Part shown: positions 34,938 through 59,169 of the stretch, one piece after another
Position numbering within the stretch: position 1 is the first letter of the stretch
Layout: every line of letters begins with the position of its first letter
Source: Proteus vulgaris
Lineage (GTDB): Bacteria; Pseudomonadota; Gammaproteobacteria; Enterobacterales; Enterobacteriaceae
Assembly (NCBI RefSeq): GCF_033708015.1
Contig: NZ_CP137921.1
Coordinates: 62,001 to 126,000, forward strand
Length of the DNA: 64,000 nucleotides
Direction of reading: 5' to 3'
Translations under genes and position numbers: made by a program
Notes under the pieces: model-generated
What the model was told of the DNA's origin: nothing
Seen by the model: the letters and a program-made list of their open reading frames with translations, nothing else
The model's database searches: none

Positions 34938-34989
34938 TAGTCGCTCTGCGGCTATAGGTGAGATAGCTGGTCTCCGAAAACAAACAGCA
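34938..34989 (+). ncRNA. twin-hairpin RNA element, copy 1
   Basis: Hairpin 1 pairs TAGTCGC with GCGGCTA around TCT. Hairpin 2 pairs GAGA with TCTC around TAGCTGG. An A-rich tail ending ACAAACAGCA follows. It begins 49 bp after the AcaCD box, so it should lie at the 5' end of the transcript. Seven further copies keep the fold with different stem bases. Confidence 0.72.
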
Positions 34990-35016
34990 TCTAGTCTTAT
35001 GCCGTATGGCATTACT

Positions 35017-35086
35017 TAACCCCAAGCCGGGGGCTTCTCCCGGTTTTCGGGTGTTGCCCCTGTTTTTTTTACATAGGAGCAACACC
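35017..35086 (+). promoter_or_regulatory. three-arm leader of gene 35087
   Basis: Arm B GGTGTTGC (35050-35057) pairs perfectly with arm C GCAACACC (35079-35086), which abuts the ATG and contains the end of the GGAG ribosome site. An upstream GGGGGC can compete for the same B arm. Confidence 0.65.
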
Positions 35087-35407
35087 ATGCACATCATCAC
35101 TTTCATTGTAGTTCTGCTTGCATCTCTGGGCGCACTGTACGTAGGCGCGAAGGCATTTGCTTTTTCCTTCATCGTTCTCGCTAAAGTGTTCCAGCGTATC
35201 GGTTTGTTCCTTTGGAACAAATTCGCAGTTCCTGCAATGCGGTCTGTACAGGCCGTCATCAAAGAACGTGCTGCCAAGGCTGAACAAGCCAAAGCAGTCG
35301 TTGAACCTGAGGTAACTCAAGTTCAAGAAGTCGCTAAACAAGAACCTGACTGGGATTATCTCGAAATCCCGACTTACCTTCGTAAGGGCAAGGAACTTGT
35401 TTGGTAA
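35087..35407 (+). CDS. small membrane-anchored protein
   Basis: The 106-residue product has an N-terminal membrane segment (residues 3-35), a basic stretch and an acidic Val/Gln-rich tail. It is the first gene of the AcaCD-driven accessory operon and is preceded by a three-arm leader. The function is unknown. Confidence 0.65.
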   Translation: MHIITFIVVLLASLGALYVGAKAFAFSFIVLAKVFQRIGLFLWNKFAVPAMRSVQAVIKERAAKAEQAKAVVEPEVTQVQEVAKQEPDWDYLEIPTYLRKGKELVW

Positions 35408-35428
35408 TAACTGTCGCTGAGTAATCTT

Positions 35429-35501
35429 CGACACTTTCAAACCCATCGGGGCAACCATACCCCGACGGGGATGTTGCCCCTTTTTGCTTAGGAGCAACAT
35501 C
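35429..35501 (+). promoter_or_regulatory. three-arm leader of gene 35502
   Basis: A GGGGCAAC (35448-35455) pairs perfectly with B GTTGCCCC (35473-35480). The overlapping GATGTTGC (35470-35477) pairs perfectly with C GCAACATC (35494-35501), next to the GGAG and the ATG. The two pairings exclude each other. Confidence 0.7.
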
Positions 35502-35594
35502 ATGGAAATCGCTATCATCGCTTTGTGTATCCCTGCTGGTTGGGCAATCTCTCGTCCTTTCGTGAGAATCGCTGAATCGTTCGGTTACTGCTGA
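35502..35594 (+). CDS. 30-residue membrane micropeptide
   Basis: A short ORF (MEIAIIALCIPAGW...) has GGAG 7 nt upstream and a full three-arm leader of the kind that precedes real genes here. It is mainly hydrophobic with a basic end. The leader is the main support. Confidence 0.5.
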   Translation: MEIAIIALCIPAGWAISRPFVRIAESFGYC

Positions 35595-35710
35595 TAGTCA
35601 ACGCAAAGGGAGGGGGCAACCCCTCTCTTTCTGGTCAAGCCTCTGTGGCTTGTCCTCAAAGTCTTCTGGTGTCAGTTGGCTTTGACGACAAGCTACAGGG
35701 GGAATGTCGA
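35595..35710 (+). promoter_or_regulatory. variant leader of gene 35711
   Basis: GCTTGTC (35648-35654) can pair with GACAAGC (35687-35693) shortly before AGGGGGAATGTCGAATG. The layout resembles the other leaders but with a longer spacing. Confidence 0.4.
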
Positions 35711-35896
35711 ATGCAACAGAATCTTCATGTTTACGACGATCACGCAGGCATCATCTATCTGGCTGATGGACGCGAGGTGAAATTTGATCCGAAACTGTAT
35801 TCCAGCTCCTACCAGGCGCACAGTGAAGCAGTGAAGTGGGCCAAAGAAACCGGGGTCATTGGTCAAAACGACGATGTGGTGATGTTCGTCCATTGA
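35711..35896 (+). CDS. small hypothetical protein
   Basis: The 61-residue product is soluble and starts MQQNLHVYDDHAG after AGGGGGA; the longer reading from 35645 runs through the leader. No family is recognised. Confidence 0.6.
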   Translation: MQQNLHVYDDHAGIIYLADGREVKFDPKLYSSSYQAHSEAVKWAKETGVIGQNDDVVMFVH

Positions 35897-35931
35897 GGGA
35901 GTAGCCTCCAGGAGAGGCTACTCTCCTCGCT
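35897..35931 (+). other. strong hairpin between operon segments
   Basis: GAGTAGCCTC pairs with GAGGCTACTC around CAGGA, just after the stop of gene 35711. It lies upstream of twin-hairpin copy 2. Similar stems precede copies 3, 4, 5, 6 and 8. Confidence 0.6.
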
Positions 35932-35937
35932 CCTTAA

Positions 35938-36049
35938 AAGTCTTCTTACTCATGGTGAATACCATCAGTAAGCAGATTTTGTTCTCTTCGGAGAGCGAAA
36001 AGTGCGATAGCTGGTCGCCAAAAACAAACAGCAAATTAACGTTAATTTA
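35938..36049 (+). repeat. 112-bp direct repeat, copy 1
   Basis: This stretch is identical to 59058-59169. It contains an interrupted palindrome CTTACTcATGGT-gaat-ACCATcAGTAAG (35945-35972), the twin hairpins and the 16-bp palindrome AAATTAACGTTAATTT. It is a likely recombination substrate. Confidence 0.85.
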
Positions 36050-36094
36050 CTAGCCCAACCGGGCGCATCCGCCCGGTTCGGGACGTGGTGCGCC
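35974..36094 (+). repeat. 121-bp direct repeat, copy 1
   Basis: This stretch is identical to 40809-40929 and covers the twin hairpins plus arms A and B of the following leader. Identity stops between arms B and C. Confidence 0.85.
35981..36033 (+). ncRNA. twin-hairpin RNA element, copy 2
   Basis: Hairpin 1 is GTTCTC-TTCG-GAGAGC, hairpin 2 is GCGA-TAGCTGG-TCGC, then AAAAACAAACAGCA. Confidence 0.72.
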
Positions 36095-36115
36095 TGTCAC
36101 AATAGGAGCGCACCT
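36053..36115 (+). promoter_or_regulatory. three-arm leader of the cobS-like gene
   Basis: A GGCGCATC (36062-36069) pairs with B GGTGCGCC (36087-36094). B's GGTGCGC also pairs perfectly with C GCGCACC (36108-36114), which overlaps the AGGAG and ends next to the ATG. Confidence 0.7.
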
Positions 36116-37084
36116 ATGTCTCAATACTCTCAATTCTCAGTAAGCAAGGTTTTCGGTATGCCCAGCATTCCGGAGAAGGTAACGGCCATCGGCTACGCTG
36201 ACGGTTCAAACCCTTTCATCCCTGCCACTGATACCAACTACGTTTTCCGCAAAGAGTTTCTGCGAGAGGTCTTGGCCTATCTCAAAGAGCCTGGCGGTGA
36301 CGCATTGTTCGTAACCGGCCCTACCGGGTCTGGCAAAACCTCAGGTATCACCGAGATCGCTGGTCGTCTCAACTGGCCTGTTCAGCAAATCACTGCCCAC
36401 GGGCGGATGGAGCTGACAGATCTGATTGGACATCACGCTCTGGTCGCGGAAAAGCCTGGTCAACCACCTGTCATGAAGTTCATGTATGGACCTCTGGCAG
36501 TCGCTATGCGTGAAGGTCATCTGCTCCTCATCAACGAGGTGGATTTGGCCGACCCTGCCGAGCTGGCTGGTCTCAACGATGTCCTTGAAGGGCGTCCCCT
36601 TGTGATCGCTCAGAATGGCGGGGAAATCATCAAGCCGCACCCGATGTTTCGTGTGGTCGTTACTGGTAACTCTACGGGGTCCGGTGATGCTTCTGGTTTG
36701 TACCAGGGGGTGATGATGCAGAACCTCGCAGCTATGGATCGCTATCGTTTCACCAAAGTAGGGTATGCGGATGAGGAAGCTGAACTCAGCATTCTTGGCC
36801 GTGCTACTCCGAAACTTCCGGAAAATGTGCGGAAGGGAATGGTTCGGATTGCTAATCAGGTCCGCAAACTGTTTCTTGGCGAAAACGGTGAAGATGGTCA
36901 GATCAGCGTCACCATGTCCACTCGGACGTTGGTGCGTTGGGCGAAACTGTCTCTAGCGTTCCGTGGTGCCCCAAATGCTCTTGAATACGCCTTGGATCAA
37001 GCTCTGCTTATCCGTGCGGCCAAAGAGGAGCGTGAAGCCATCCTGCGTGTTGCGAAGGATGTGTTCGGGGACCAATGGCGCTAA
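36116..37084 (+). CDS. cobS: CobS-like AAA+ ATPase
   Basis: The 322-residue MoxR/CobS-type ATPase has Walker A GPTGSGKTSG near residue 69, Walker B LLLINEVDLADP near residue 137 and a sensor VVVTGNSTG near residue 180. CobS and CobT in cobalt chelatase form a chaperone-like pair of AAA+ and VWA proteins. Here no cobalamin genes are present, so a remodelling role for some other target is more likely. The partner VWA gene is at 42313. Confidence 0.88.
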   Translation: MSQYSQFSVSKVFGMPSIPEKVTAIGYADGSNPFIPATDTNYVFRKEFLREVLAYLKEPGGDALFVTGPTGSGKTSGITEIAGRLNWPVQQITAHGRMELTDLIGHHALVAEKPGQPPVMKFMYGPLAVAMREGHLLLINEVDLADPAELAGLNDVLEGRPLVIAQNGGEIIKPHPMFRVVVTGNSTGSGDASGLYQGVMMQNLAAMDRYRFTKVGYADEEAELSILGRATPKLPENVRKGMVRIANQVRKLFLGENGEDGQISVTMSTRTLVRWAKLSLAFRGAPNALEYALDQALLIRAAKEEREAILRVAKDVFGDQWR

Positions 37085-37094
37085 GAGGTGACGC

Positions 37095-38003
37095 ATGAAG
37101 AAAAATGACTGTTTGTGCCGTCGTTACACTGCTAAAGAGTGGGGCAATGACGAAACCACAATAGAAGTCTTCATTGGCTACAAGTTGCTCCGGGAGCCCA
37201 GCTCCTCGGAGCCAGGCCAATTCACGATGGTCGAGCTACGCCGAACCGTCACTGATGGGAAAGCTGAAAATTGGTCTGAGACAAAGCTCGAAGGACCTTT
37301 TGAAGCTAACGGCCCAGACACGATCCCAATGTCCTACAAGGACAAAGAAAGCCAGTATGTGTCACAGTTTCTCAGCCAGGGGTACACCTTTCTGGATGAG
37401 GTGCTGGTAAACGCAGAGACACAGACGGTGCTGGAAGGGGGGAATGTTTCAGCCGGACAAACAGCCAGCTTGGGATCTCTCAACTGGCTGTTATCTCCGC
37501 CCTCTGAGTTACCTCCAGGTGACATAAACCTCTTCAAAGGTTTTGTTGCTGGGGTTTTTGCCAAAGGAGCCGGTTTAATCGGCTTTGAGGTTGCTCGGAG
37601 CGAAGGCTCAAATGACTTGCTACCCAGTGTGCTGATGCGTACTGACAGCGGTTATGAGCTTGGGGTTAGCACTGGACTAGGCGAAAACACTATCCATCCA
37701 GCTACGCTGGAAGGCGCTGGTGAACTCCGCCCGGAACATGGTCACAAACCCCTGCTGATGTTGGTTTACCTGCAACAGCGTTTCGCGGATGACTTTTCAA
37801 ACGTAGAGAAGCCGCTGGTGGCATTCTGTGATGAACAGGGTGATACCTTCGACTACGAGCGTTTTGATTCACTAAAACCCCTCATTGAACGGTTTGGTTT
37901 CAGCTACGACGAAGTAAGAGCAGATGCAGAAAGGCTTGGCCTTGTATCTGAGCTGATTCGCCTGGCAGAGATCGACGCCGAACAAGAGGATCACTTTTTT
38001 TAA
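37095..38003 (+). CDS. hypothetical protein following the AAA+ gene
   Basis: The 302-residue product is soluble and acidic and ends AEQEDHFF. It follows the cobS-like gene by 10 bp with AAGAGGTGACGC before the ATG and has no leader of its own, so it probably shares regulation with it. No motif is recognised. Confidence 0.7.
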   Translation: MKKNDCLCRRYTAKEWGNDETTIEVFIGYKLLREPSSSEPGQFTMVELRRTVTDGKAENWSETKLEGPFEANGPDTIPMSYKDKESQYVSQFLSQGYTFLDEVLVNAETQTVLEGGNVSAGQTASLGSLNWLLSPPSELPPGDINLFKGFVAGVFAKGAGLIGFEVARSEGSNDLLPSVLMRTDSGYELGVSTGLGENTIHPATLEGAGELRPEHGHKPLLMLVYLQQRFADDFSNVEKPLVAFCDEQGDTFDYERFDSLKPLIERFGFSYDEVRADAERLGLVSELIRLAEIDAEQEDHFF

Positions 38004-38066
38004 CCCTTACGGGGGCTTGCTCCCCGAAAGGGGCGTTGGCCCTCTCCAAATAACTTGGAGGTCATG
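38004..38066 (+). promoter_or_regulatory. leader of ssb
   Basis: A GGGG/CCCC hairpin is followed by TCCAA-ataac-TTGGA, which covers the GGAGG ribosome site. The three-arm pattern is weaker here than elsewhere. Confidence 0.45.
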
Positions 38067-38594
38067 ATGTCTAAAGGCGTCAACAAAGTAATTCTGGTCG
38101 GTAATCTCGGTTCTGACCCGGAAATTCGCTACATGCCAAGCGGCACTGCCGTTGCCAACTTCAACGTTGCAACAACGGATACGTGGCGCGATAAGCAGTC
38201 TGGCGAGCAAAGAGAGCATACTGAGTGGCACCGTATTGTGCTTAAAGGTCGTTTGGCGGAAGTCGCTGGTGAGTACCTGAAAAAGGGCTCCCAAGTCTAT
38301 CTCGAAGGGAGCAACCGCACCCGGAAGTGGACTGACAGCCAACAAATCGAGCGCTACACCACCGAAGTACACTGCGTTGAAATGCAGATGCTTGGTGGTC
38401 GTGGAAATGCACCTCAGGACAACTCTCAACGTGCAGCGCCCCAAAAAGGGCAACGTACAGGAGCCGGTACGCAATCTGCTCCTGTGCAGCAATCAGCACC
38501 GCAAGGTGGTATGGGCGGAGGCTATGGTCCCGCTCCTGATGGCTGGGATGATGACATCCCGTTCATGCGGCTGCACCACTTGGCTGGCGGGTAA
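38067..38594 (+). CDS. ssb: single-stranded DNA-binding protein
   Basis: The 175-residue SSB has the OB-fold start [19 protein letters not shown] and the HTEWHRIV motif. A Gln/Gly/Pro-rich linker follows, and the end reads DDIPF, as in the SSB interaction tail but extended by [14 protein letters not shown] lies 5 nt before the ATG at 38067. It groups with bet and exo. Confidence 0.95.
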
Positions 38595-38611
38595 CACCGC
38601 CAACTCTTACT

Positions 38612-38688
38612 AAACCCCACGGGGGCACTCATGCCCCGAGGGGGTCATGGTGTCCTCAAACCGTTCATTCGTGAATTGGAGAAACACC
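38612..38688 (+). promoter_or_regulatory. three-arm leader of bet
   Basis: B CATGGTGT (38646-38653) pairs perfectly with C ACACCATG (38684-38691), which contains the start codon. A GGGGGCACTCATG can pair with B through one bulge. Confidence 0.68.
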
Positions 38689-39678
38689 ATGTCTGATAAC
38701 AAATCTCTTGTAACCCGTATCGCAAGCCGGTTTGGCGTGGACACCCGAAAGTTCTATGAAACTTTGAAGGCGACCGCATTCAAGCAGCGAGATGGAAGTG
38801 CCCCGACCGATGAGCAGATGATGACGCTCCTGATCGTGGCTGAACAGTACGGTTTGAACCCTTTCACTCGGGAAATCTATGCGTTTCCTGACAAGCAAAA
38901 TGGGATCATTCCGGTAGTAGGTGTTGATGGTTGGAGCCGCATCATCAACGAGCATCCCCAGTATGATGGCGTCGAGTTCGTGTATTCGGACAAGATGGTC
39001 AGAATGCAGGGGGCGAAAGTTGACTGCCCTGAGTGGATTGAATGCGTGATTTACCGTAAGGACAGATCTCGCCCTATCCGCATCAAGGAGTTCATTGATG
39101 AGGTGTACCGTGAACCGTTTCAGGGTCAAGGTCGCAATGGTGCTTACACTGTTGATGGCCCCTGGCAAACGCACACCAAGCGTCAACTCCGGCACAAGTC
39201 GCTGATCCAGTGTTCTCGTGTCGCATTTGGTTTCTCTGGTATTTATGACCAGGATGAAGCTGAACGCATCCGTGAAATGGAGCAGGCATCGGCCATTAAC
39301 CCGGCTATTGCCAATCTCCCTTCACCATCTCAAGTTCAAAGCCAAGAGCCTTTGGCTATTGAGCACAAAGAGCTTGACCCGATCCTAACCAAACTCGCAA
39401 ATCGCGCCATTGCTGAAAACGCATGGTCTGCGGCGCATGAGTATGTGAAGGGACGGTATGAAGGTTCGGAACTGCAATATGCGACTCAATTCCTTCGTGA
39501 CAAGGAGATGGATCAAATGGAGCCTCCGAAACCTGACTACCAGGAAGCGCACGAGCAAGAGTCCGCCGCTGGTGGTTCTGCAAATGCTGAACCTGGTGCC
39601 GAAGAAATGCCGCCTTTGAGTGACGAGGACATGATCCCTGTTACAGAAGAGGAGGGCGCGGAAGGCAGTTACTACTAA
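38689..39678 (+). CDS. bet: Bet/RecT-family single-strand annealing recombinase
   Basis: The 329-residue protein carries the RecT/Bet core (PTDEQMMTLLIVAEQYGLNP, GIIPVVGVDGW, later WPWQTHTKRQLRHKSLIQ-like region) and an acidic C-terminal tail. With Exo it forms a lambda-Red-like pair, as known in SXT/IncC elements, for annealing exonuclease-generated single strands. ACACC and a GGAG lie before the ATG at 38689. Confidence 0.93.
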   Translation: MSDNKSLVTRIASRFGVDTRKFYETLKATAFKQRDGSAPTDEQMMTLLIVAEQYGLNPFTREIYAFPDKQNGIIPVVGVDGWSRIINEHPQYDGVEFVYSDKMVRMQGAKVDCPEWIECVIYRKDRSRPIRIKEFIDEVYREPFQGQGRNGAYTVDGPWQTHTKRQLRHKSLIQCSRVAFGFSGIYDQDEAERIREMEQASAINPAIANLPSPSQVQSQEPLAIEHKELDPILTKLANRAIAENAWSAAHEYVKGRYEGSELQYATQFLRDKEMDQMEPPKPDYQEAHEQESAAGGSANAEPGAEEMPPLSDEDMIPVTEEEGAEGSYY

Positions 39679-39740
39679 CCCCAACGGGGGGGACTCCCCC
39701 GCTGGGGGAGATCTCCCTCCTAACCATTGGAGAGAGGTCC
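39679..39740 (+). promoter_or_regulatory. leader of exo
   Basis: A GGGGGGACTCCCCC hairpin is followed by GGGAGATCTCCCTCC, which can pair with the downstream GGAGAGAGGTCC that includes the ribosome site. Confidence 0.5.
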
Positions 39741-40751
39741 ATGAAAATAGTCAACCTATCGCAACGCGAGGAAGATTGGCTTGATTGGCGGCGTCAAGGT
39801 GTAACAGCCACTGACGCCGCTATCCTGCTCAATCGGTCTCCGTACAAAACACGATGGAGACTGTGGGCCGAGAAGACTGGGTATGCGCGTGAAGTCGATC
39901 TGAGTCTTAATCCGCTGGTTCGCCGGGGGATAGAAAACGAAGATGCTGCAAGACGCGCTTTCGAGGAGAAGTATGATGACATGCTGCTCCCCGCCTGTGT
40001 CGAATCGGTTCAATACCCGCTCATGAGGGCCTCCCTGGATGGCCTGAGAGATAACGGGGAGCCCGTCGAGCTGAAAAGCCCGAGTGCGACTGTCTGGGAA
40101 GATGTTTGTGCTGAGAAAGCAAACAGCAAGGCATACCAGCTTTATTACCCGCAGGTGCAACACCAGCTCCTGGTAACGGGGGCCAAGCAAGGCTGGTTAG
40201 TCTTCTACTTTGAAGGTCAGATTCAGGAGTTTCCAATACTCCGAGACGAAGCCATGATTCAAGAAATCTTGGCCGAGGCTAAAAAGTTCTGGCAACAGGT
40301 AGTAGACAAGAAGGAGCCCGACAAAGATCCAGAGAGAGACCTGTACATACCGCAAGGTGAAGAGGTCAACCGTTGGATTGCTGCTGCTGAGGAATACCGC
40401 CTCTATGATGCAGAGATTCAGGAGCTGAAACAGCGACTGTCTGAGCTTCAAGAAAGGCAAAAGCCTCATCTCGACACCATGAAGTCCCTCATGGGGGAAT
40501 ACTTCCATGCCGACTACTGCGGTGTGATGGTAACGAGATACAAAGCGGCTGGCCGGGTAGACTACAAAAAGCTGTTGGCTGATAAGGCGTCAGGCGTGAA
40601 GCCTGAGGATGTTGACCAGTACAGAGAGAAGTCATCAGAGCGGTGCCGTGTAACGGTTACTGGCTCTGTGAAGCCACGGTACATTGTTGATGAGGACGTG
40701 CTTGCTCCTCTTGATGATTTGCCGGAAGAAGTAGAGACGTTCTACTGGTGA
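39741..40751 (+). CDS. exo: lambda-type exonuclease (YqaJ fold)
   Basis: The 336-residue protein has the YqaJ-type nuclease pattern: WLDWRRQGVTATDAA, RRGIENEDAAR, ASLDGL (metal Asp) and VELKSPS (E-x-K). A C-terminal helical region follows. It would resect double-strand ends for Bet. AGAGAGG precedes the ATG. Confidence 0.92.
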   Translation: MKIVNLSQREEDWLDWRRQGVTATDAAILLNRSPYKTRWRLWAEKTGYAREVDLSLNPLVRRGIENEDAARRAFEEKYDDMLLPACVESVQYPLMRASLDGLRDNGEPVELKSPSATVWEDVCAEKANSKAYQLYYPQVQHQLLVTGAKQGWLVFYFEGQIQEFPILRDEAMIQEILAEAKKFWQQVVDKKEPDKDPERDLYIPQGEEVNRWIAAAEEYRLYDAEIQELKQRLSELQERQKPHLDTMKSLMGEYFHADYCGVMVTRYKAAGRVDYKKLLADKASGVKPEDVDQYREKSSERCRVTVTGSVKPRYIVDEDVLAPLDDLPEEVETFYW

Positions 40752-40774
40752 GTGGGGGATTTTCCCCCGCTTTC
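40751..40774 (+). other. intra-operon hairpin with CTTTCCC tail
   Basis: GGGGG-ATTTT-CCCCC is followed by GCTTTCCC. It stands between exo and twin-hairpin copy 3. The T-run is short, so it may be a weak terminator. Confidence 0.6.
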
Positions 40775-40808
40775 CCTTGGGGATTCTGGGAGTCTCCAAC
40801 GGAAAGCA

Positions 40809-40929
40809 AGATTTTGTTCTCTTCGGAGAGCGAAAAGTGCGATAGCTGGTCGCCAAAAACAAACAGCAAATTAACGTTAATTTACTAGCCCAACCGGGCG
40901 CATCCGCCCGGTTCGGGACGTGGTGCGCC
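40809..40929 (+). repeat. 121-bp direct repeat, copy 2
   Basis: Identical to 35974-36094. Confidence 0.85.
40816..40868 (+). ncRNA. twin-hairpin RNA element, copy 3
   Basis: Same sequence as copy 2, lying between exo and the DUF3150 gene. Confidence 0.72.
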
Positions 40930-40950
40930 CCCAACTTTTTGGAGTGCATC
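40890..40950 (+). promoter_or_regulatory. three-arm leader of the DUF3150 gene
   Basis: Arms A and B equal those of the cobS leader. C is GTGCATC (40944-40950), pairing with GGTGCGC (40922-40928) through two G-U pairs and abutting the ATG. C changes here while pairing is kept. Confidence 0.68.
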
Positions 40951-42228: not shown

Positions 42229-42235
42229 TAGTCAC

Positions 42236-44109: not shown

Positions 44110-44126
44110 CAGGAAGTGAAACGACA

Positions 44127-44523: not shown

Positions 44524-44538
44524 CACCCGAAAAGGGCA
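44524..44538 (+). promoter_or_regulatory. AcaCD-type box, internal to the accessory region
   Basis: CACCCGAAAAGGGCA is followed by GTTTGAGCG. It deviates from the others at the first two bases. Twin-hairpin copy 4 begins 111 bp downstream. Confidence 0.55.
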
Positions 44539-44607: not shown

Positions 44608-44648
44608 CTCAGAGGCCTTCATTGAGGGTTGCTGAGAAAGTGAATTTT

Positions 44649-44700
44649 GTCCTCTCTGAGGGCGAAACGTGCGATAGCTGGTCGCCAAAAACAAACAGCA
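44649..44700 (+). ncRNA. twin-hairpin RNA element, copy 4
   Basis: Hairpin 1 is GTCCTC-TCT-GAGGGC, hairpin 2 is GCGA-TAGCTGG-TCGC, then AAAAACAAACAGCA. Hairpin 1 differs from copy 2 at both sides of the stem. Confidence 0.72.
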
Positions 44701-49017: not shown

Positions 49018-49035
49018 ACTTTCACATGTGAAAGT
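49018..49035. repeat. palindrome CTTTCACATGTGAAAG, copy 3
   Basis: ACTTTCACATGTGAAAGT is a perfect 18-bp inverted repeat in the gap between operon segments, next to twin-hairpin copy 5. Confidence 0.7.
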
Positions 49036-49061
49036 TTGTGCCCCTCGGAAAGCAAGATTTT

Positions 49062-49114
49062 GCTCTCTGTCGAGAGTGAATAGTGAGGTAGCTGGCCTCC
49101 CCAAACAAACAGCA
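49062..49114 (+). ncRNA. twin-hairpin RNA element, copy 5
   Basis: Hairpin 1 is GCTCTC-TGTC-GAGAGT, hairpin 2 is GAGG-TAGCTGG-CCTC, then CCCAAACAAACAGCA. The hairpin 2 stem differs from copies 1 and 2 at paired positions. Confidence 0.74.
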
Positions 49115-49909: not shown

Positions 49910-49917
49910 GAACCACT

Positions 49918-52104: not shown

Positions 52105-52107
52105 ACC

Positions 52108-52732: not shown

Positions 52733-52787
52733 CTTCAACCTGAGTGCGCCGAGAAATCGGCGTACCGGCCCCTTAAAAAGGGTAATC

Positions 52788-52813
52788 AGCGCAGGGGGAA
52801 ACCCCGCGCTTTC
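52788..52813 (+). other. intra-operon hairpin with CTTTCCC tail
   Basis: AGCGCAGGGG-GAAA-CCCCGCGCT is followed by TTCCC, upstream of twin-hairpin copy 6. Confidence 0.6.
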
Positions 52814-52846
52814 CCAAGCATCTCGGTTTCCCAGGGTGCTTCGGAA

Positions 52847-52896
52847 AGTGCCTTAGGCGCTCAAGTGCGGTAGCTGGCTGCCAAAAACAAACAGCA
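52847..52896 (+). ncRNA. twin-hairpin RNA element, copy 6
   Basis: Hairpin 1 is AGTGCC-TTA-GGCGCT, hairpin 2 is GCGG-TAGCTGG-CTGC, then CAAAAACAAACAGCA. Both stems carry compensatory changes relative to copies 2 and 5. Confidence 0.74.
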
Positions 52897-52902
52897 AATT
52901 AT

Positions 52903-52964
52903 CAACCCTGACGGGAGCACCTCCTGTTAGGGGGGCTCCGTCATAAACTGAACGGAGATATAGC
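52903..52964 (+). promoter_or_regulatory. three-arm leader of gene 52965
   Basis: B CTCCGT (52936-52941) pairs perfectly with C ACGGAG (52952-52957), the ribosome site. A GACGGGAGC pairs with GCTCCGTC through one bulge. Confidence 0.68.
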
Positions 52965-53351
52965 ATGTCTAAAAACGTCAACGATGTTTTTTCAAACCGA
53001 ACTTCTTTGGAATGTACTGTGAATGCAGCGCTGGATCGTCGTATCGGTCTGCGTGTCGGGTTCCCTCATTACAGAGAAGGAGCAAACGGTGTGGTTTGTG
53101 AGATCGAAGCAGAGTACCCATTGCTCAACACTCATTCGAGTGTTGCATGGCCCCTGCTCGATGAACTCAACAGTTACACCATCCAAAAAAACCAATCGCT
53201 CATTGATCACATTGATAATGCGGTCGCTGAACTGTTGAAACACAAGGCTCGTCTACAGCTTGATATTCAAAAGCTGCAAGACGGTGACATTGATCTGGTG
53301 AAACAGGCCAAGCAGCAATACGAAGACAACCAGATGTCGAGTAGCAGCTAG
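52965..53351 (+). CDS. hypothetical protein with coiled-coil end
   Basis: The 128-residue product has a strand-rich start and a helical C-terminal half (about residues 70-125, Leu/Lys/Gln-rich) likely to form a coiled coil. ACGGAGATAT precedes the ATG. No family is recognised. Confidence 0.62.
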   Translation: MSKNVNDVFSNRTSLECTVNAALDRRIGLRVGFPHYREGANGVVCEIEAEYPLLNTHSSVAWPLLDELNSYTIQKNQSLIDHIDNAVAELLKHKARLQLDIQKLQDGDIDLVKQAKQQYEDNQMSSSS

Positions 53352-53378
53352 TTCAGGTCTGATAGCCAGGATTCAATT

Positions 53379-53438
53379 TTAACCCTACCGGGGTGCTTTC
53401 CCGGAAGGGATGGGCACCCTGCTAATCCAGGAGGCCCT
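53379..53438 (+). promoter_or_regulatory. leader of the DndC-like gene
   Basis: A GGGTGC pairs with B GCACCC around an inner CCCGG hairpin. B's GGGC can pair with GCCC directly after the AGGAG. Confidence 0.5.
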
Positions 53439-55892
53439 ATGCAACAAACATTAAACTTTGATCTATCAGAACAACCCATCCCAGTGCTTTTGCGTGGGGA
53501 TAAGTGGGATTCTGTTTGGTCAGAACTGACTGATAACGAGGATTTGAACTTCGTTGATGCCAGTAGAGGAACCAGTCTGTCATCGTTGATCACGTCATCG
53601 GTTGAGTCCATTCACACGGCCTTAATTGATGGGTGGACCATGATGATCGGCTATTCCAGTGGTAAAGATTCTGAAACGGTCTTGCACCTGTTCCTGATGG
53701 CCCTGATCCGGGCTGTAAGGAGTGGGGCGACCATCAGCCAGCACCACTTCATCTTGCACACTGACACACTGATCGAAAGCCCAGAGGTAAGGTGGCTGGC
53801 GGATCAGAAACTGGCCGAGCTGGAGCGTTTCATTGCGAAGGAAAACCTTCCTCTGACCATCGTTCTAGCAAAGCCTGGGATCTCGCAGAGTTGGACGGGC
53901 CGAATCCTTACTGGGAGGGGGTTGCCTACGTTTTCCAACTCCACGGCCCGCCAGTGTAGCCAGGATTTAAAAATCACCTCTGCCAAAAGAGCGAAGGCAG
54001 CTTATATGCGAGAGCTTCCCAAAGAGGTTCGACAGAAAGTCTGCCTTTTGCTGGGCAGTCGTGATGCTGAAAGCACTATTCGTGCGGCCAACATTGCAAA
54101 ACAGCGAGGAAGCTCAGATCGCGTCATTAAGACGAAAGATGGGGGTGAGCTGTATGTGGTGAAAAACTGGTTGGCGAGTGATGTCTGGGAGTTCTTACTA
54201 TCCGCTGGCATGGGCTCAGCATATCCTCTGCCAAGTTACTTGGAGAGCAATGTCACTACGGCAGAGCTTTACAAGGCGGCAACAGGGGAGTGCGTGTGGT
54301 CGGCAACAGAGAAGAAGGCCAGTGACGCCTGTGGCGCTCGCTTCGGTTGCTGGGCTTGCCAGGCTGTTGGGTTGGATAAGTCAATGGAGACGTTGCTTGC
54401 CACGGACCCTGAAAGGCATGGCTATATGTCGGGGCTGAACCGCATCCAGCGCTACTTGGCAAAACGCCGGTACGCATGGGAAGACCGCCATCCCGTAGGT
54501 CGAACGATTTACGAGGGCGGATACATCAAAATACAGCCGGACGTTTACAGTCCTGTTTTCCTAGAACGATTGCTTCATGTCTGTTGCAGCATGGACTACA
54601 TGGAGCAAAAGAGAGCTGATGAGCTGGCATACAAGCTGGCTACTGGTCAAGCAGAGGATAACGACTGGAACCGTCGAATGGCAGAGCCACAATTCCGGAT
54701 CATATCGGAAGAGGCTTTAGTCCATATCGACTTCATGTGGGCCTTCCATCATTTCAATGATAAGCCTTTCCATGCCCTGGAGATTTACCACAGGGTTTGG
54801 TCGATGGGTGATCTGGACTTGCTGGAAGACGAGCCGCAGTGTGAAACCGTTCCTCAGTCACCAATTCCGAAGCCATTGTGGTTGAAGGTTGGTCGCTGGG
54901 GCGATGGTTCGCTTTCTGATGGCTTGGCCGATCCGTTAGCGGAAATGGCTTACTTTGACGGCGGGGATGACCCGTTGGCAGCGCAAGTGATCAATACCGC
55001 AGACGGAAAGAGAAGGGTGGTTTGCTTCGCAGAAGATGATGAAGTGAAAGTCGATCCCGACTCCGCTGCGTTCATCATCTGGAACGAATACCCGCGACTA
55101 AGGGAGTCTGTACTAAAGGGACATTATACGCCCGGTAGTGCAGCGCAGTTCTACCTTCGGTTCGGAGCAATCCAGCTTGCGAAAGGAAAAGGCGCTTTGT
55201 ATCACCGTATGATGCAAAGAGGTCAAACCTACCACCAGATGGGCCTTACAGGGCTACAGACGATGGAAGGAATCCAACAGCGCAAGGATGTCAAAGTGCT
55301 TAGCGATGCTAAGTACAAAGATCTGGTGAAGCGAAAAATCAAGGGAAGACTGGCAACGGTACGCTGGTGGGTCAACTTGCACTTAACGTTCAAGTACCAT
55401 CTGCACCACCGTACTCCGACGGGGTTGTTCATCGAGAAGCAACTTGACCAGGAAGCAATGGAAGAACAGAAACGGCATCAGGAGCGATGGTTTAACTACG
55501 TGACTGACGCGATGCTTTGTTACTCCAGCGCATTCTGTATGAGCGTCATGGAAGGGCGAGAGGGGAGCGGAAACGCCAACATTCGTCGTTACATGGCCGC
55601 GACCAGAAGGAAGGCTTATACGGCCCTCTGCGAGCTCTTGGACAATACTGACGCCCAGTGGATGAATGATGTGGTCCAGAGTGCCGTAGGGCAGTATGAG
55701 GCGATACAGGCAGCCCTAACCGAAGGTTCCGCGCTTGCTATCTATCTCGACTGGATCAACCTACTGTCAAAACGCCATCCAGCCTCTTTGGAGCGACATG
55801 TCAGAACGATGATCAAGGCGGTTCAACGCTTACATCGCCGCGACGACACAGAGTTGCAAAGAGGACAGCAAGGCTTGTCCTTGGCCGCATAA
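53439..55892 (+). CDS. large PAPS-reductase/DndC-like PP-loop protein
   Basis: The 817-residue protein has a PP-loop (YSSGKDSETVL, about residues 71-80). Then come HTDTLIESPEV, RQCSQDLK, an LLGSRDAEST-type motif and a cysteine cluster (CGARFGCWACQ, about residues 295-305), like the Fe-S cysteines of DndC. DndC activates sulfur for phosphorothioate DNA modification. Here the protein is much longer than DndC and the rest of dnd is absent from the window. The C-terminal 400 residues are helical and unassigned. A terminator follows. Confidence 0.85.
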   Translation: MQQTLNFDLSEQPIPVLLRGDKWDSVWSELTDNEDLNFVDASRGTSLSSLITSSVESIHTALIDGWTMMIGYSSGKDSETVLHLFLMALIRAVRSGATISQHHFILHTDTLIESPEVRWLADQKLAELERFIAKENLPLTIVLAKPGISQSWTGRILTGRGLPTFSNSTARQCSQDLKITSAKRAKAAYMRELPKEVRQKVCLLLGSRDAESTIRAANIAKQRGSSDRVIKTKDGGELYVVKNWLASDVWEFLLSAGMGSAYPLPSYLESNVTTAELYKAATGECVWSATEKKASDACGARFGCWACQAVGLDKSMETLLATDPERHGYMSGLNRIQRYLAKRRYAWEDRHPVGRTIYEGGYIKIQPDVYSPVFLERLLHVCCSMDYMEQKRADELAYKLATGQAEDNDWNRRMAEPQFRIISEEALVHIDFMWAFHHFNDKPFHALEIYHRVWSMGDLDLLEDEPQCETVPQSPIPKPLWLKVGRWGDGSLSDGLADPLAEMAYFDGGDDPLAAQVINTADGKRRVVCFAEDDEVKVDPDSAAFIIWNEYPRLRESVLKGHYTPGSAAQFYLRFGAIQLAKGKGALYHRMMQRGQTYHQMGLTGLQTMEGIQQRKDVKVLSDAKYKDLVKRKIKGRLATVRWWVNLHLTFKYHLHHRTPTGLFIEKQLDQEAMEEQKRHQERWFNYVTDAMLCYSSAFCMSVMEGREGSGNANIRRYMAATRRKAYTALCELLDNTDAQWMNDVVQSAVGQYEAIQAALTEGSALAIYLDWINLLSKRHPASLERHVRTMIKAVQRLHRRDDTELQRGQQGLSLAA

Positions 55893-55920
55893 AAAGCCCT
55901 CCTTCGGGAGGGCTTTTTCT
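55891..55920 (+). terminator. terminator after the DndC-like gene
   Basis: AAAAAGCCCTCC-TTCG-GGAGGGCTTTTT is a strong, near-symmetrical hairpin. Confidence 0.93.
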
Positions 55921-55924
55921 TTTG

Positions 55925-55939
55925 CACCCCAAAAGGGCA
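55925..55939 (+). promoter_or_regulatory. AcaCD-type box before the HD-nucleotidase segment
   Basis: CACCCCAAAAGGGCA is followed by ATTACAGCG and a possible -10 (CTTTTAGG). Twin-hairpin copy 7 begins 49 bp after the box, the same distance as at 34889. Confidence 0.66.
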
Positions 55940-55987
55940 ATTACAGCGTTTTACCCTTTTAGGTGGCTGTCATACTCTTTGTTCATT

Positions 55988-56030
55988 GTCAGCGCTTGCT
56001 GGCTATAACGGTAGCTGGCCCAAAACAGCA
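55988..56030 (+). ncRNA. twin-hairpin RNA element, copy 7 (divergent)
   Basis: Hairpin 1 is GTCAGC-GCTT-GCTGGC. Hairpin 2 keeps the TAGCTGG loop but its stem is only GG/CC, and the tail is shortened to CAAAACAGCA. Confidence 0.62.
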
Positions 56031-56036
56031 ATAACC

Positions 56037-56093
56037 TAACCCCTCGGGAGGAAACCCCTCCTGGGTTCTCTCCCACAAACAAAGGAGAGAAGC
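56037..56093 (+). promoter_or_regulatory. three-arm leader of gene 56094
   Basis: B TTCTCTCC (56066-56073) pairs perfectly with C GGAGAGAA (56084-56091), the whole ribosome site. A GGGAGGAAACCC pairs with GGGTTCTCTCCC with one mismatch. Confidence 0.72.
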
Positions 56094-56297
56094 ATGAGCC
56101 TAGACAAGTTAAGTCGGCTGGTGGACCAACAACGAAAGATCCAGGATGAAATCGACAATGAAATCATTCTGGCCGTCAAAGAGGTGTTGGCTACAAACTC
56201 AGTCGGTTTAGCCCGTGAGCTTGTTGGGGGTGTCCCGCAAGATCATCCATTCCATCCGTTTTTACTCGCTATAGCTAAGCAGCTTGACCCGAGATAA
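56094..56297 (+). CDS. small hypothetical protein
   Basis: The 67-residue product is helical (LVDQQRKIQDEIDNEI). AAGGAGAGAAGC precedes the ATG. It is the first gene of an AcaCD-box segment. Confidence 0.6.
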   Translation: MSLDKLSRLVDQQRKIQDEIDNEIILAVKEVLATNSVGLARELVGGVPQDHPFHPFLLAIAKQLDPR

Positions 56298-56298
56298 C

Positions 56299-56368
56299 TA
56301 AGTAACCCAACCGGGTACACCAAGGCCCGGTCGGCTTTGGTGTACCTCCAACCAATTTTGGAGGCACT
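56299..56368 (+). promoter_or_regulatory. three-arm leader of the HD-nucleotidase gene
   Basis: A GGTACACCAA (56314-56323) pairs perfectly with B TTGGTGTACC (56337-56346), 10 bp. The alternative CCTCCAA (56345-56351) with TTGGAGG (56358-56364) closes over the ribosome site. Confidence 0.75.
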
Positions 56369-56974
56369 ATGTCTAATTCAAATTTCGGCTTTCTAGCTCT
56401 GGCCTTGCGCCAACGCCTGATCAAACGCTGGTCACTGATGCACTCTGTTCAACCGGAGTCTGTGTTGGAACACAGCGCTGTTGTTACCCTGCTTTCCTAC
56501 CTGGCTGGCAATATTGCCATTCAGCAAGGGAAGTCGGTGGATCTGGCAGTCATGCTTGCTCATGCTTCGTTGCATGATGCAGCCGAGGTTCTCTGTTCGG
56601 ATGTTGTAACACCGGTCAAGAAAGCAAACGCTGTTTTGCAGCGTGAGTTTGAACGACTGGAAAAGGCCGCAGAGGACAAACTCATCCAGACTCTTCCCGA
56701 AGAACTCCAGGATGCAGTCGCCATAGCCTTCGCTCCCGGTGGCTATGAACAATCACTGGTTAAGGCCTGTGATACCTACTCCGCTTACATCAAGTGCAAA
56801 CTTGAGGTGGCCGCAGGTAATGGCCTTGAGTTCCAGGATGCTCTCAGCAAAATGGAACGTGTTGTTGCTCAGGTGAAATCGGACTTCCCGGAAATCGACG
56901 CTCTGGACAAATGGTTTGGTAACGGACTCGGCCATTCAGTAGATAAACTGCTGGCAGGGGGTAACGATGACTAA
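56369..56974 (+). CDS. YfbR-like HD-domain 5'-nucleotidase
   Basis: The 201-residue protein matches the YfbR pattern: RLIKRWSLM, then VLEHSA (first His), HASLHDAAEVL (HD) and VVTPVKKAN. YfbR-type enzymes dephosphorylate deoxyribonucleoside monophosphates. On a plasmid it could adjust nucleotide pools for replication after transfer or act in anti-defence. TTGGAGG precedes the ATG. It overlaps the next gene by 8 bp. Confidence 0.85.
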   Translation: MSNSNFGFLALALRQRLIKRWSLMHSVQPESVLEHSAVVTLLSYLAGNIAIQQGKSVDLAVMLAHASLHDAAEVLCSDVVTPVKKANAVLQREFERLEKAAEDKLIQTLPEELQDAVAIAFAPGGYEQSLVKACDTYSAYIKCKLEVAAGNGLEFQDALSKMERVVAQVKSDFPEIDALDKWFGNGLGHSVDKLLAGGNDD

Positions 56975-57236
56975 TCCAATCCCTGGCGACATCAAGATTA
57001 AGGACTTTGGCCGCGACCGGAAATTCCGTTCGGTTGATGAGCTTCAAAGCACTTTGTCAGAACAGTACAAAGGTCAGCATGTCAGCATCGTTTACCCTGC
57101 AAAGCCCAGCGGTTTACTCCGCACGGTTTTTGTCAGTGTCGATGATGCTGGTGGCGTGAATCGAACCTATGGGGACCAGTCTCCTGTCGATTTTTCTGCC
57201 ATCAAAGATGACCTGTATGTACCAAGTGACCTGTAG
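56967..57236 (+). CDS. small hypothetical protein
   Basis: The 89-residue product is soluble and overlaps the nucleotidase gene by 8 bp with no leader of its own. No motif is recognised. Confidence 0.6.
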   Translation: MTNPIPGDIKIKDFGRDRKFRSVDELQSTLSEQYKGQHVSIVYPAKPSGLLRTVFVSVDDAGGVNRTYGDQSPVDFSAIKDDLYVPSDL

Positions 57237-57249
57237 GAGAGCACTAGCT

Positions 57250-57468
57250 ATGGTGGTGATCATCGTAAACACAGGACACTATGAGTTTATCGGCCTTGGT
57301 GAGACCCACGGACAAGCCACAGAAGGGCTTTTGAAACGCTGGGACGAACACTGCGAACGTAATCCGGATGCTGAGTCTGGTTACATGCAGGAGCTGATAG
57401 AAGAAGGAAGCGCACAAGTTGTCGAGATGGAGCCCGGCTCCGCCGTAATTTACGGACTTGACGGCTAA
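57250..57468 (+). CDS. small hypothetical protein
   Basis: The 72-residue product starts MVVIIVNTGHYEF after TAGGAGAGCACTAGCT. It is acidic in the C-terminal part. The family is not recognised. Confidence 0.6.
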   Translation: MVVIIVNTGHYEFIGLGETHGQATEGLLKRWDEHCERNPDAESGYMQELIEEGSAQVVEMEPGSAVIYGLDG

Positions 57469-57477
57469 GCCTTCTCA

Positions 57478-57541
57478 ACTAACCCACTCGGGCGCATCAT
57501 CCCGAGAGGGTGTGGTGCGTCCTAACCAAAAGGAATGCACT
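57478..57541 (+). promoter_or_regulatory. three-arm leader of gene 57542
   Basis: A GGGCGCATC pairs with B GGTGCGTCC (two wobbles) around CCCGAGAGGG. GTGC in B can pair with GCAC just before the ATG. Confidence 0.62.
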
Positions 57542-58099
57542 ATGTCTAACTTTGAACAAGCTCTGGAGCGTACTGACGGTAAAACACTGATTCTCAGCAA
57601 TGGGAGTAAGTGGGCAGGCCAAGACCCGGACAGTATTCAGACTTTACTGGATGTCCTGGGTGACAACGTTCTTGACCCGATGTTTGAGCAGTATCACTGT
57701 TATCGCCCATACCCGTTTGAACCAATGGTGAGGACGGGGCGAAATGGCGAAATGTTCCAGCCTTGGCTTGGGGCAGCCTGCTTCTTTGGGAACTTCCTGA
57801 CTGTCTCTCATGTTTTCAACATCATCACGAAAGATGACGGTGTTGTTGAGGCCTTAACAGAGGCGATCCGGAAGAATATGGCGACTGAACAGTACCAGCA
57901 GAATGCCTATGAGCGTTATGCCGGTTGGTTCTACGCTGAAACCAGCGAAGGGTTAAGGCTAGTCTCTCCAAGTGAGGCTGCCGACATCCGAGCTGGCGCA
58001 GTTTCAAAGCTGCGTTACCCAAGAAACTTCGAGGTTATGAAAACTGCGGTTCTCAAAGGTCCTCGATTTGATACTGAATTAAGCCGCAAGGCTTCTTAA
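57542..58099 (+). CDS. hypothetical protein
   Basis: The 185-residue product is soluble and mixed in structure. AAAGGAATGCACT precedes the ATG. No motif is recognised. Confidence 0.62.
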   Translation: MSNFEQALERTDGKTLILSNGSKWAGQDPDSIQTLLDVLGDNVLDPMFEQYHCYRPYPFEPMVRTGRNGEMFQPWLGAACFFGNFLTVSHVFNIITKDDGVVEALTEAIRKNMATEQYQQNAYERYAGWFYAETSEGLRLVSPSEAADIRAGAVSKLRYPRNFEVMKTAVLKGPRFDTELSRKAS

Positions 58100-58105
58100 C
58101 CCAAA

Positions 58106-58173
58106 CATTAACCCCACGGGGGACATCGGTCCCTGAGGGGATGGTGTCTCCCTCTGAAATTAAGGAGATACCA
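58106..58173 (+). promoter_or_regulatory. three-arm leader of gene 58174
   Basis: B GGTGTCTCC (58143-58151) pairs with C GGAGATACC (58164-58172) over 9 bp with one wobble, burying the ribosome site. A GGGGGACATC can pair with GATGGTGTC. Confidence 0.74.
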
Positions 58174-59025
58174 ATGATTAAACAGCATTTTCAAAACGAA
58201 CTGGTTAAGTGTGGATACCCGGATGATCTGACGATTGAGTACAGTCTCGGATACTGCCAGGGGGATGGCGTAGCCTTCTACGGGGATTTGAGCGTTGATG
58301 ACGTCAAAGCTCTCATGAATCGCCTATTCAGCACTGAGCCCGGCCAAGTGGATGCTGTCAGCCGCGTGAAGAACCTGATGGCACAGAAAGACATTGAGAA
58401 TATGCTTTCTGTCCTCCGCGAATATGGTTCCTGTGACCTGTCCATTACTCGGAATAGTCACGGGCATCACTACAGCCATTGGAACTGCATGAACATCGAC
58501 GACAACGTGGACTTCACAGGGATCTTCCCTGATGATGATTCCATGATTGGCACCGGCATTGAAGGGATTAACCAGGATATGGTCGAGCGCTGGCAAGACC
58601 TCTGGGAACGCTTTGTGCTGGAGCTGGCGGATGATGTAAAAAGTCTTTCCAAGAAGCTCGAAGCGGACGGGTACTCGCTGATCGAGGCCTCTCCATGCGA
58701 AGATGAAGTGGTTTGGGAACGGGCCACTGAAAACTACCTGGTGCGTGTTACTGAACTCCCTGAGCGGGATTTCGATATGGGCCACTGGGATGACGAAGTA
58801 AGAGACCAAACAATTTGTTCTATCCTGGAAGGGAAAGAGCGAGTGCTTGGCCTACGTGTTGAGGTACTCTCTCGTGAAAACGAGATTGTCCTGGGTGAAG
58901 AGAGTCTGCACGGCTTGACCGTTGCCAGTGATGACAAGAGCTACGCTGGCTACAGACGAGAACTTCTCCGGGGAGCTATCCAGCAAACCAGGGACTTTTT
59001 CTCTCGCCACCTCAAAGCGGCATAA
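58174..59025 (+). CDS. hypothetical protein
   Basis: The 283-residue product is acidic with several tryptophans. HGHHYSHWNCMNIDDNVDF is a His-rich patch near residue 100. AAGGAG precedes the ATG. No family is recognised. Confidence 0.65.
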   Translation: MIKQHFQNELVKCGYPDDLTIEYSLGYCQGDGVAFYGDLSVDDVKALMNRLFSTEPGQVDAVSRVKNLMAQKDIENMLSVLREYGSCDLSITRNSHGHHYSHWNCMNIDDNVDFTGIFPDDDSMIGTGIEGINQDMVERWQDLWERFVLELADDVKSLSKKLEADGYSLIEASPCEDEVVWERATENYLVRVTELPERDFDMGHWDDEVRDQTICSILEGKERVLGLRVEVLSRENEIVLGEESLHGLTVASDDKSYAGYRRELLRGAIQQTRDFFSRHLKAA

Positions 59026-59029
59026 CAAG

Positions 59030-59051
59030 GCAGGGGGAAACCCCTGCTTTA
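59030..59051 (+). other. intra-operon hairpin
   Basis: GCAGGGG-GAAA-CCCCTGC is followed by TTTACTTCCC, upstream of twin-hairpin copy 8. Confidence 0.6.
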
Positions 59052-59057
59052 CTTCCC

Positions 59058-59169
59058 AAGTCTTCTTACTCATGGTGAATACCATCAGTAAGCAGATTTT
59101 GTTCTCTTCGGAGAGCGAAAAGTGCGATAGCTGGTCGCCAAAAACAAACAGCAAATTAACGTTAATTTA
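59058..59169 (+). repeat. 112-bp direct repeat, copy 2
   Basis: Identical to 35938-36049. Confidence 0.85.
59101..59153 (+). ncRNA. twin-hairpin RNA element, copy 8
   Basis: Same sequence as copies 2 and 3. Confidence 0.72.

Follow-up and report, generated by a model that had tools for sequence, protein, structure and literature searches.

A repeated RNA element with a predicted pseudoknot in an IncC-type plasmid operon of Proteus vulgaris and its relatives in other mobile elements

The stretch of Proteus vulgaris DNA analysed here (the window; 64,000 nucleotides of contig NZ_CP137921.1) belongs to an IncC-type plasmid contig, as judged from a record 100% identical over 10 kb that is typed IncC. 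One long operon of the window carries eight copies of a short RNA element, in which a first hairpin (hairpin 1) is followed by a second one with the loop TAGCTGG (hairpin 2) and by an A-rich tail. Hairpin 2 and the tail are predicted from sequence comparison to form an H-type pseudoknot with a variable stem 1 and pairing between GCUG of the loop and CAGC of the tail. Relatives of the element occur in IncC and IncA plasmids, pAQU2, a Photobacterium plasmid, SXT-type integrative and conjugative elements (ICEs), Salmonella genomic island 1 (SGI1) and betaproteobacterial genomes. The best single reading, which we hold tentatively and at somewhat less than an even chance, is a cis-acting antitermination or anti-polarity RNA. 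The initial annotation had proposed antitermination, with a protein-bound or processing site as the main alternative. Its view of a cis-acting transcribed RNA that lies near 5' ends and is repeated through a hairpin-rich operon stands, and antitermination itself is retained as the best reading only.

Anatomy of the repeated element

All eight copies were borne out at the positions first assigned to them, each on the + strand and each between annotated genes or chosen open reading frames (ORFs; Table 1). The heptamer TAGCTGG by itself is not rare, with 13 occurrences in the window against 5.27 expected. Joined to the tail as TAGCTGG-N{5,14}-AAACAGCA, it occurs 7 times against 0.00 expected. The wider spacing TAGCTGG-N{2,12}-AAACAGCA recovers all 8 copies, on the forward strand only, across the whole 4.37-Mb genome, where it has no reverse-strand match and a reversed control has none at all. 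The tail, initially described as constant, is exact in five of the eight copies and carries one mismatch in copy 1 and two in copy 5; the list of hairpin 1 stems was also incomplete, since GCTCTC/GAGAGT of copy 5 had been left out. Copies 2, 3 and 8 are identical in the 25 upstream bases and the core. Copy 1 combines the stem GAGA/TCTC with loop TAGCTGG and tail CAGC, and copy 7 is a short form, 7 nt shorter (CCCAAAACAGCA), with a stem 1 of 2 bp and a loop 3 of 5 nt.

The original plan of two hairpins required revision in one respect, namely that GCUG of the loop pairs with CAGC of the tail and thus makes hairpin 2 a part of the predicted pseudoknot. Its parts follow in the order stem 1, UA loop, stem 2 (4 pairs), one G, and A-rich loop 3. 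The comparison set comprised 103 matches at E ≤ 0.2 in 54 loci, window copies included, which reduced to 74 distinct sequences with 25 upstream bases and 63 distinct in the core. Stem 1 has 4-6 pairs in 62 of the 63 long forms, and loop 3 measures 9-10 nt in 59 of them, with 72% A among 610 loop-3 letters. Because these two lengths are tied by construction in the long form, their Spearman correlation was dropped. The element as a whole consists of a core of about 20-29 nt and an optional hairpin 1. That hairpin is usual, not universal: a stem of at least 6 contiguous pairs is present in 66% of 73 sequences against 29% of shuffles, with a mean folding-energy z of -1.9 (one of the 74 was dropped for a missing flank).

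Covariation was assessed in two alignments. In the model-made one, 97.6% of cells pair against 83.4% in shuffles, and two-sided changes occupy 67 cells against 17.1. A MAFFT alignment of 29 chosen diverse rows, of which L133:15318 is misaligned in the tail, gives 97.0% against 79.5% and 36 two-sided changes against 8.2; all stem-2 cells (100%) are paired there, and 2 of the 4 stem-2 pairs show compensatory changes. Stem 1 varies on both sides at all 4 of 4 pairs. Stem 2 can form in 74 of 74 distinct sequences, distributed as 69 GCTG/CAGC, 3 GCTG/CAGT, 1 GCTG/TAGC and 1 ACTG/CAGT; the last, ACUG:CAGU, comes from plasmid pPGC22 and retains pairing. A further compensatory variant, GCUA:UAGC, is found in the SXT-type operon and in two SGI1-like islands (L248, L254). 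The island variants were located by position at the 5' end of the sgm-RNA, not by the model, and their stem 1 has one mismatch by eye, while the SXT-type copy was picked up by the model at 23.5 bits. The best pairing cases are those located by position because the search model prefers consensus letters. Taken together, the sequences point to a stem-1 hairpin whose loop pairs with the 3' tail, both stems covarying, as expected of an H-type pseudoknot.

Some further motifs accompany the copies. GGAAAG recurs just upstream of copies 3, 5 and 6 (GAGAAAG at copy 4), shortly ahead of hairpin 1, and at internal copies it is complementary by eye to an upstream CTTTCC. The same hexamer precedes the element in L190, L191, L204 and L205, in gamma- and betaproteobacterial loci alike. 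A perfect palindrome, ACTTTCACATGTGAAAGT, lies at 49018-49035 in the leader of copy 5 and again at 12563-12580, in the tra part and far from any copy; it is also found near the element in L161 and L219, with variants in L162 and L163. It could be an RNA hairpin or a DNA operator.

Table 1. Element copies, promoter boxes and neighbouring features (window coordinates)
Feature	Coordinates	Strand	Details
Copy 1	34938..34989	+	hairpin 1 34938-34954, pseudoknot (predicted) 34960-34988; promoter-proximal
Copy 2	35977..36033	+	hairpin 1 35977-36000, pseudoknot (predicted) 36004-36032; internal
Copy 3	40812..40868	+	hairpin 1 40812-40835, pseudoknot (predicted) 40839-40867; internal
Copy 4	44645..44700	+	hairpin 1 44645-44667, pseudoknot (predicted) 44671-44699
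Copy 5	49059..49114	+	hairpin 1 49059-49080, pseudoknot (predicted) 49085-49113; internal
Copy 6	52847..52896	+	hairpin 1 52847-52861, pseudoknot (predicted) 52867-52895; internal
Copy 7	55988..56030	+	hairpin 1 55988-56003, short-form pseudoknot (predicted) 56010-56029; promoter-proximal
Copy 8	59097..59153	+	hairpin 1 59097-59120, pseudoknot (predicted) 59124-59152; internal
AcaCD-like box core	34875..34889	+	89 bp from box start to loop of copy 1
AcaCD-like box core	44524..44538	+	upstream of copy 4; 151 bp from core start to loop
AcaCD-like box core	55925..55939	+	87 bp from box start to loop of copy 7
First-gene leader	34990..35086	+	GC-rich hairpin and hairpin covering the Shine-Dalgarno sequence (by eye), after copy 1
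First operon gene	35087..35407	+	106-aa predicted membrane protein, FtsZ-tail-like C-terminus
bet hairpin leader	38595..38688	+	AACCC..GGGG hairpin and Shine-Dalgarno hairpin

Relatives in mobile elements and spacing from promoter boxes

The initial annotation had suggested a covariance search of Rfam and of IncC/SXT genomes. Rfam supplied no family, with 0 matches at gathering score in the window and 5 weaker ones at E ≤ 5 in 34.5-60 kb, none of them over a copy; relatives in IncC and SXT-type elements were found. By BLAST at E ≤ 1, one copy is matched by 868 plasmid records and by 106 of 5426 E. coli genomes. With E ≤ 0.05, pAQU2 has 11 matches, pPGC22 (Photobacterium ganghwense) 9, pRA1 (IncA) 8, a Rhodocyclaceae genome 9, and a 20-kb Salmonella record, identified as SGI1 by its genes, 2. 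An SXT/R391-type ICE in E. coli, so named by its gene order (recombination genes, then TraH), has one clear match: in 26 kb, 10 bits are exceeded once, ahead of the first gene. Among the titles and abstracts listed on IncC plasmids, AcaCD, sgm-sRNA, ICEs, pseudoknots and antitermination, in a library with few subscription journals, none describes the element.

Genome scans with the core model R1 gave counts that are lower bounds, two SXT-type genomes having been missed by the Vibrio-family scan. Within the same order, 394 genomes yielded 4 with a match, the P. vulgaris genome among them (E ≤ 0.001), and within the same class that genome was the only one of 369 (strict filter). The order of a Rhodocyclaceae genome gave 7 of 300, counting the Rhodocyclaceae genome itself (E ≤ 0.005), and the Vibrio family 10 of 296 (strict filter). 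A loose DNA pattern in genome contigs returned at least 119 stretches. Among the 80 of these that were model-scored, together with L161-L163, only L067 (39.2 bits) stood out besides those three loci, and it proved real; stretch L019 reached 25.0 bits. Two patterns in viral contigs yielded 22 loci, with L146 at 48 bits and the other 21 at 23.7 at most.

The position of the element relative to promoters is constrained. Copies 1 and 7 start 49 bp past the end of a 15-bp AcaCD-like core (34938 minus 34889; 55988 minus 55939), as first noted; copy 4, previously placed inside the operon, has an AcaCD-like box as well. Of the 23 copies that were examined, 12 follow the core start of such a box by 87-93 bp (≤3 mismatches), comprising two copies from IncC, two from IncA, one from pAQU2, SGI1 S018 and six island-type loci. 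The remainder consist of one at 151 bp (copy 4), one at 204 bp (SGI1 P5), whose box we judge unrelated, and 9 with no box. Table 1 of PMC4207636 contains both the S018 box and the box type. No copy lies within 300 bp of the AcaCD-like matches found among the tra genes of the window. For SXT, passages of PMC4344509 on SetCD place the strongest peak between s063 and s089, where s089 opens the recombination operon, and the SXT-type copy sits between a divergent gene pair at the corresponding place.

Three SGI1-like islands (L162, L163, L220) carry the element behind an AcaCD-like box of its own and aimed at the 3' end of an opposite-strand gene; in L162 it stands behind mpsB and is followed by a long perfect hairpin. 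In these islands it may head a non-coding transcript.

Structured leaders and the transcripts of SGI1 and SXT

The operon that bears the copies differs from the tra genes in its leaders, defined as the 75 nt before each start codon and controlled by dinucleotide shuffles. In the IncC plasmid, median leader energy is -28.3 for 34 operon genes against -15.7 for 24 tra genes (p=1.2e-7), and z is -2.72 against -0.23 (p=3.4e-7). pAQU2 (-25.2, z -2.9, 31 genes; tra -13.8, z -0.39, 8 genes; p=0.003) and pRA1 (-31.8, z -3.72, 30 genes; tra -17.8, z -0.24, 6 genes; p=0.009) behave alike. The tra genes are nearly contiguous, with a median gap of 1 nt against 73.5 in the element-bearing operon. When only IncC gaps of at least 40 nt are compared, using gene starts before a later revision, the values are -30.2 (25 genes) and -15.8 (6 tra genes; p=2.1e-4); of these same genes, 16/25 in the operon and 0/6 in tra have AACCC..GGG leaders, against a background of 7.9%. 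Many operon leaders also contain, by eye, a hairpin that covers the Shine-Dalgarno sequence. In SGI1, the leaders of the two element-headed genes have energies of -26.4 and -27.1 and those of five others range from -9.0 to -21.5, the traN leader lying behind an insertion sequence in this record.

A module of an AACCC..GGGG hairpin followed by a Shine-Dalgarno hairpin, the latter seen by eye, stands before most gapped genes at 35.0-62.0 kb and also in the SXT-type ICE. The instance before bet is probably the counterpart of the translational attenuator published for SXT bet (reported in the attenuator passages of PMC4542580), and the module looks like a general form of it. Those passages also report SXT bet and exo as highly transcribed although bet is translationally attenuated; they make no mention of the pseudoknot element. 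Element-bearing operons thus seem to be muted translationally, gene by gene, and yet transcribed. Because they are, they would need protection from polarity; the tra genes, being tightly packed, would not.

The second informative transcript is the sgm-sRNA of SGI1. The sgm-sRNA sections of PMC9299015 map the start of its precursor behind promoter P5 (ttgacg-16-taatat), which directly precedes one copy in L136. By our own arithmetic from the distances given there, the start lies about 9 nt before the loop, so that the pseudoknot falls within about 10 nt of the transcription start site. Matched through this published promoter, the element makes up about the first 28 nt of the precursor. The same sections state that most P5 transcripts end 70-80 nt on, near a 26-bp terminator-like repeat 66 bp from the start, to which the authors attribute the stop while also considering RNase cleavage at the repeat. 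Even so, an RNA of 650-700 nt is made, and 5' deletions are incompletely rescued by the foreign promoter Pcat. Cleavage yields the mature sgm-sRNA, whose 5' ends lie 56-58 and 98-103 nt from the start, and the element is not described in those sections (PMC9299015). We matched the 26-bp repeat to CCCTCAGGGGGACTGTCCCCTAGGGG, which is of the same kind as the AACCC..GGGG leader hairpin of the plasmid operon. Six of six further islands inspected (L248, L251, L253-L256) retain the pseudoknot at the sgm-RNA place. The longer RNA and the incomplete rescue fit an element that raises readthrough, but they also show that readthrough is poor in the strain used.

Two arrangements downstream of the element were seen in Betaproteobacteria. 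In two of these genomes (3 of 13 loci scanned), a tRNA-Asp (GTC) gene lies about 290-300 nt downstream, on the same strand as a promoter-proximal element, at L198:593-666 and L205:2255-2328. In a third such genome (L191), a U-tract hairpin separates the element from the first gene. Both arrangements speak for a transcriptional role at those loci. At another betaproteobacterial locus (L245:4821-5564), the element precedes a distant MpsA homologue (29%) by about 700 nt, a possible counterpart of the SGI1 sgm-sRNA/mpsA arrangement.

Candidate functions, known systems and the first gene

Under the antitermination reading, the hairpin and pseudoknot RNA would act on the RNA polymerase that is transcribing it, either by itself or with the help of a partner protein, making the enzyme resistant to Rho-dependent polarity, to hairpin stops, or to both. 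Polymerase would thereby be kept from stopping early in long operons whose hairpins are predicted to block translation, internal copies would renew the state along the operon, and islands such as SGI1 would use the same signal. This proposal is helped by SGI1, with a copy at the mapped 5' end of the sgm-sRNA, and by SXT, with a copy before the long operon. Anti-polarity against Rho fits better than bypass of U-tract terminators because most leaders are attenuator-like and terminators are at most weakly enriched. A helper-encoded factor is possibly needed, which would explain the mostly stopped SGI1 transcripts, observed in a strain with no helper plasmid named. A more ambitious formulation combines a new class of pseudoknot antitermination signals, by which IncC/IncA, SXT-type and betaproteobacterial elements and islands traverse muted operons, with an SGI1 signal that heads the mobilization RNA and allows the full-length product only with a helper-encoded factor. 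We regard that combination as possible and, taken whole, doubtful.

Several observations weigh against antitermination or against the fold on which it relies. A processive antiterminator should not require eight copies, and in SGI1 most transcripts from P5 get no further than the first hairpin in spite of the copy at their head, so that the element was not efficient in that strain (PMC9299015, sgm-sRNA sections). Terminator-like sites number 22 against 18.7 (sd 4.0) and 17 against 11.0 (sd 3.0) in shuffles, both strands included, an excess in the window operon that is weak at most; two strong + strand sites lie at 44126 and 59883. Neither pRA1 nor pAQU2 retains the U8 tract that follows copy 1. 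In the IncC operon, genes immediately after a copy have leaders no different from those of the other genes (p=0.12), pPGC22 has its 9 matches and yet weaker leaders (z -1.62, 11 genes; also -16.7, -16.1), and two CobS-type operons lacking the element have intermediate ones (-22.9, -20.8). No NusG-family protein is encoded on the plasmid at E ≤ 0.001, the two matches both being on contig C1, not on the plasmid contig (C2). A tblastn search for candidate partners found none in common: what betaproteobacterial loci share is limited to SSB, a toprim protein and one protein of 92 aa, all three absent from the 20-kb SGI1 record. Changes in stem 2 are few, with a search model that favours the consensus. 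The short forms L161:2364 and L133:18900 leave 2 and 0 nt for loop 3 and could therefore form the pseudoknot only if stem 1 opens.

One candidate mechanism was rejected. Antitermination by RfaH or another NusG paralogue at an ops sequence finds no NusG-family protein on the plasmid, and 5 of the 8 copies read GATAG where the ops consensus requires GGTAG.

Alternatively, the hairpin and pseudoknot might shield 5' ends from pyrophosphohydrolase and RNase E, the internal copies marking further 5' ends that arise where a long stem immediately before them is cut. Although this is unlikely, some observations favour it: the structures begin a few nucleotides from the mapped SGI1 start and from predicted starts, several internal copies lie behind a long stem (by eye) ending in GGAAAG, in Betaproteobacteria too, and the sgm-sRNA does mature by cleavage (PMC9299015, as above). 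Cleavage would be required at each internal copy, however, and the near-invariant UAGCUGG and CAGC letters go unexplained, since any stem would protect; the operon-head copy of the SXT type is explained no better than by antitermination. Translational control, as exercised by a bound protein at the T4 gene 32 pseudoknot, offers another model that we rate as rather improbable. Here an element-encoded RNA-binding protein would sit on the pseudoknot and switch attenuator and Shine-Dalgarno hairpins. The leaders that follow the element with hairpins covering the Shine-Dalgarno sequence (by eye), two copies directly preceding ssb in one betaproteobacterial genome, and the bet attenuator of PMC4542580 (attenuator passages) agree with such a switch, but attenuator-like leaders also stand at operon genes with no nearby copy, a tRNA gene follows the element in two genomes, the distance from element to ORF ranges from about 60 to about 300 nt, and no common protein partner emerged, SSB, the toprim protein and the 92-aa protein being absent from the SGI1 record.

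The remaining explanations are far less probable. preQ1-I riboswitch aptamers are compact H-type pseudoknots with an A-rich third loop, and the element has the same topology, with a short stem and a loop paired to the tail behind an A-rich stretch. Nonetheless, a small-molecule riboswitch of this kind is highly improbable, as the element has no Rfam match at gathering score, nor one over a copy at E ≤ 5, and eight copies repeated within one operon region are unlike riboswitches. Least credible is a DNA-level element, such as a recombination, replication or single-strand signal transcribed by chance. Its occurrence in mobile elements beside recombination genes would suit this idea, whereas its invariable sense orientation relative to the window operon, its narrow spacing from promoter boxes and some G-U pairs in both stems favour an RNA.

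The put RNAs of phage HK022, which suppress pausing and termination through the zinc-binding domain of the RNA polymerase beta' subunit, inspired the initial annotation, and the likeness is reduced here to an analogy. Element and put are alike as RNAs near operon starts in mobile genomes with a proposed cis action on polymerase. The passages of PMC9378689 on put describe an RNA of about 70 nt that forms two stem-loops and whose activity persists with no dedicated protein. Unlike put, the element has a short pseudoknot core of about 20-29 nt, a hairpin 1 that is sometimes absent and many copies per operon; the put features looked for were not found in it, and the element model in HK022 gave nothing convincing (best 9.8 bits, E=2.2). 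The conAn system of pLS20 and other Gram-positive conjugation operons, compared by description only, likewise has an RNA heading a long conjugative-element operon with internal hairpins. There, protein ConAn1 and RNA conAn2 counter more than 20 terminators (PMC8955417, passages on conAn); in the window operon, U-tract terminators are not clearly in excess, and the search for a partner identified none. Location at an operon head, as in conAn, applies to copies 1 and 7 and to the SXT-type and SGI1 copies, the others being internal. If the antitermination reading is true, the element would work like put or conAn2. The SXT/IncC bet attenuator is a separate module of the same operon (Garriss et al. 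2013, cited in the attenuator passages of PMC4542580).

The first operon gene encodes a protein with a hydrophobic N-terminus and a tail, ..EPDWDYLEIPTYLRKGKELVW, that closely resembles the host FtsZ tail, ..KEPDYLDIPAFLRKQAD. The motif recurs in the matching first gene of IncA, pAQU2, pPGC22, the SXT-type ICE and one betaproteobacterial locus (L131, L133, L135, L191, L266, L267, L270) and in a later gene of L190, L242 and L243; it was not found in the SGI1 record. The tail may mimic the FtsZ C-terminal peptide and bind partners of FtsZ, which include FtsA and ZipA. A PDB sequence search with the tail returned no FtsZ match, and a Pfam search on ten operon proteins returned no family.

Resistance genes have important vehicles in IncC plasmids, SXT ICEs and SGI1. 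If the antitermination reading is true, a shared cis-acting RNA heading the recombination and maintenance operons of these mobile elements would constitute a layer of control beyond AcaCD and SetCD, and would account for the complete transcription of an operon that is translationally muted. It would also make testable how the sgm-sRNA arises from a strong promoter whose transcript is mostly stopped. More broadly, the element would represent a family of RNA antiterminators spanning gamma- and betaproteobacterial hosts.

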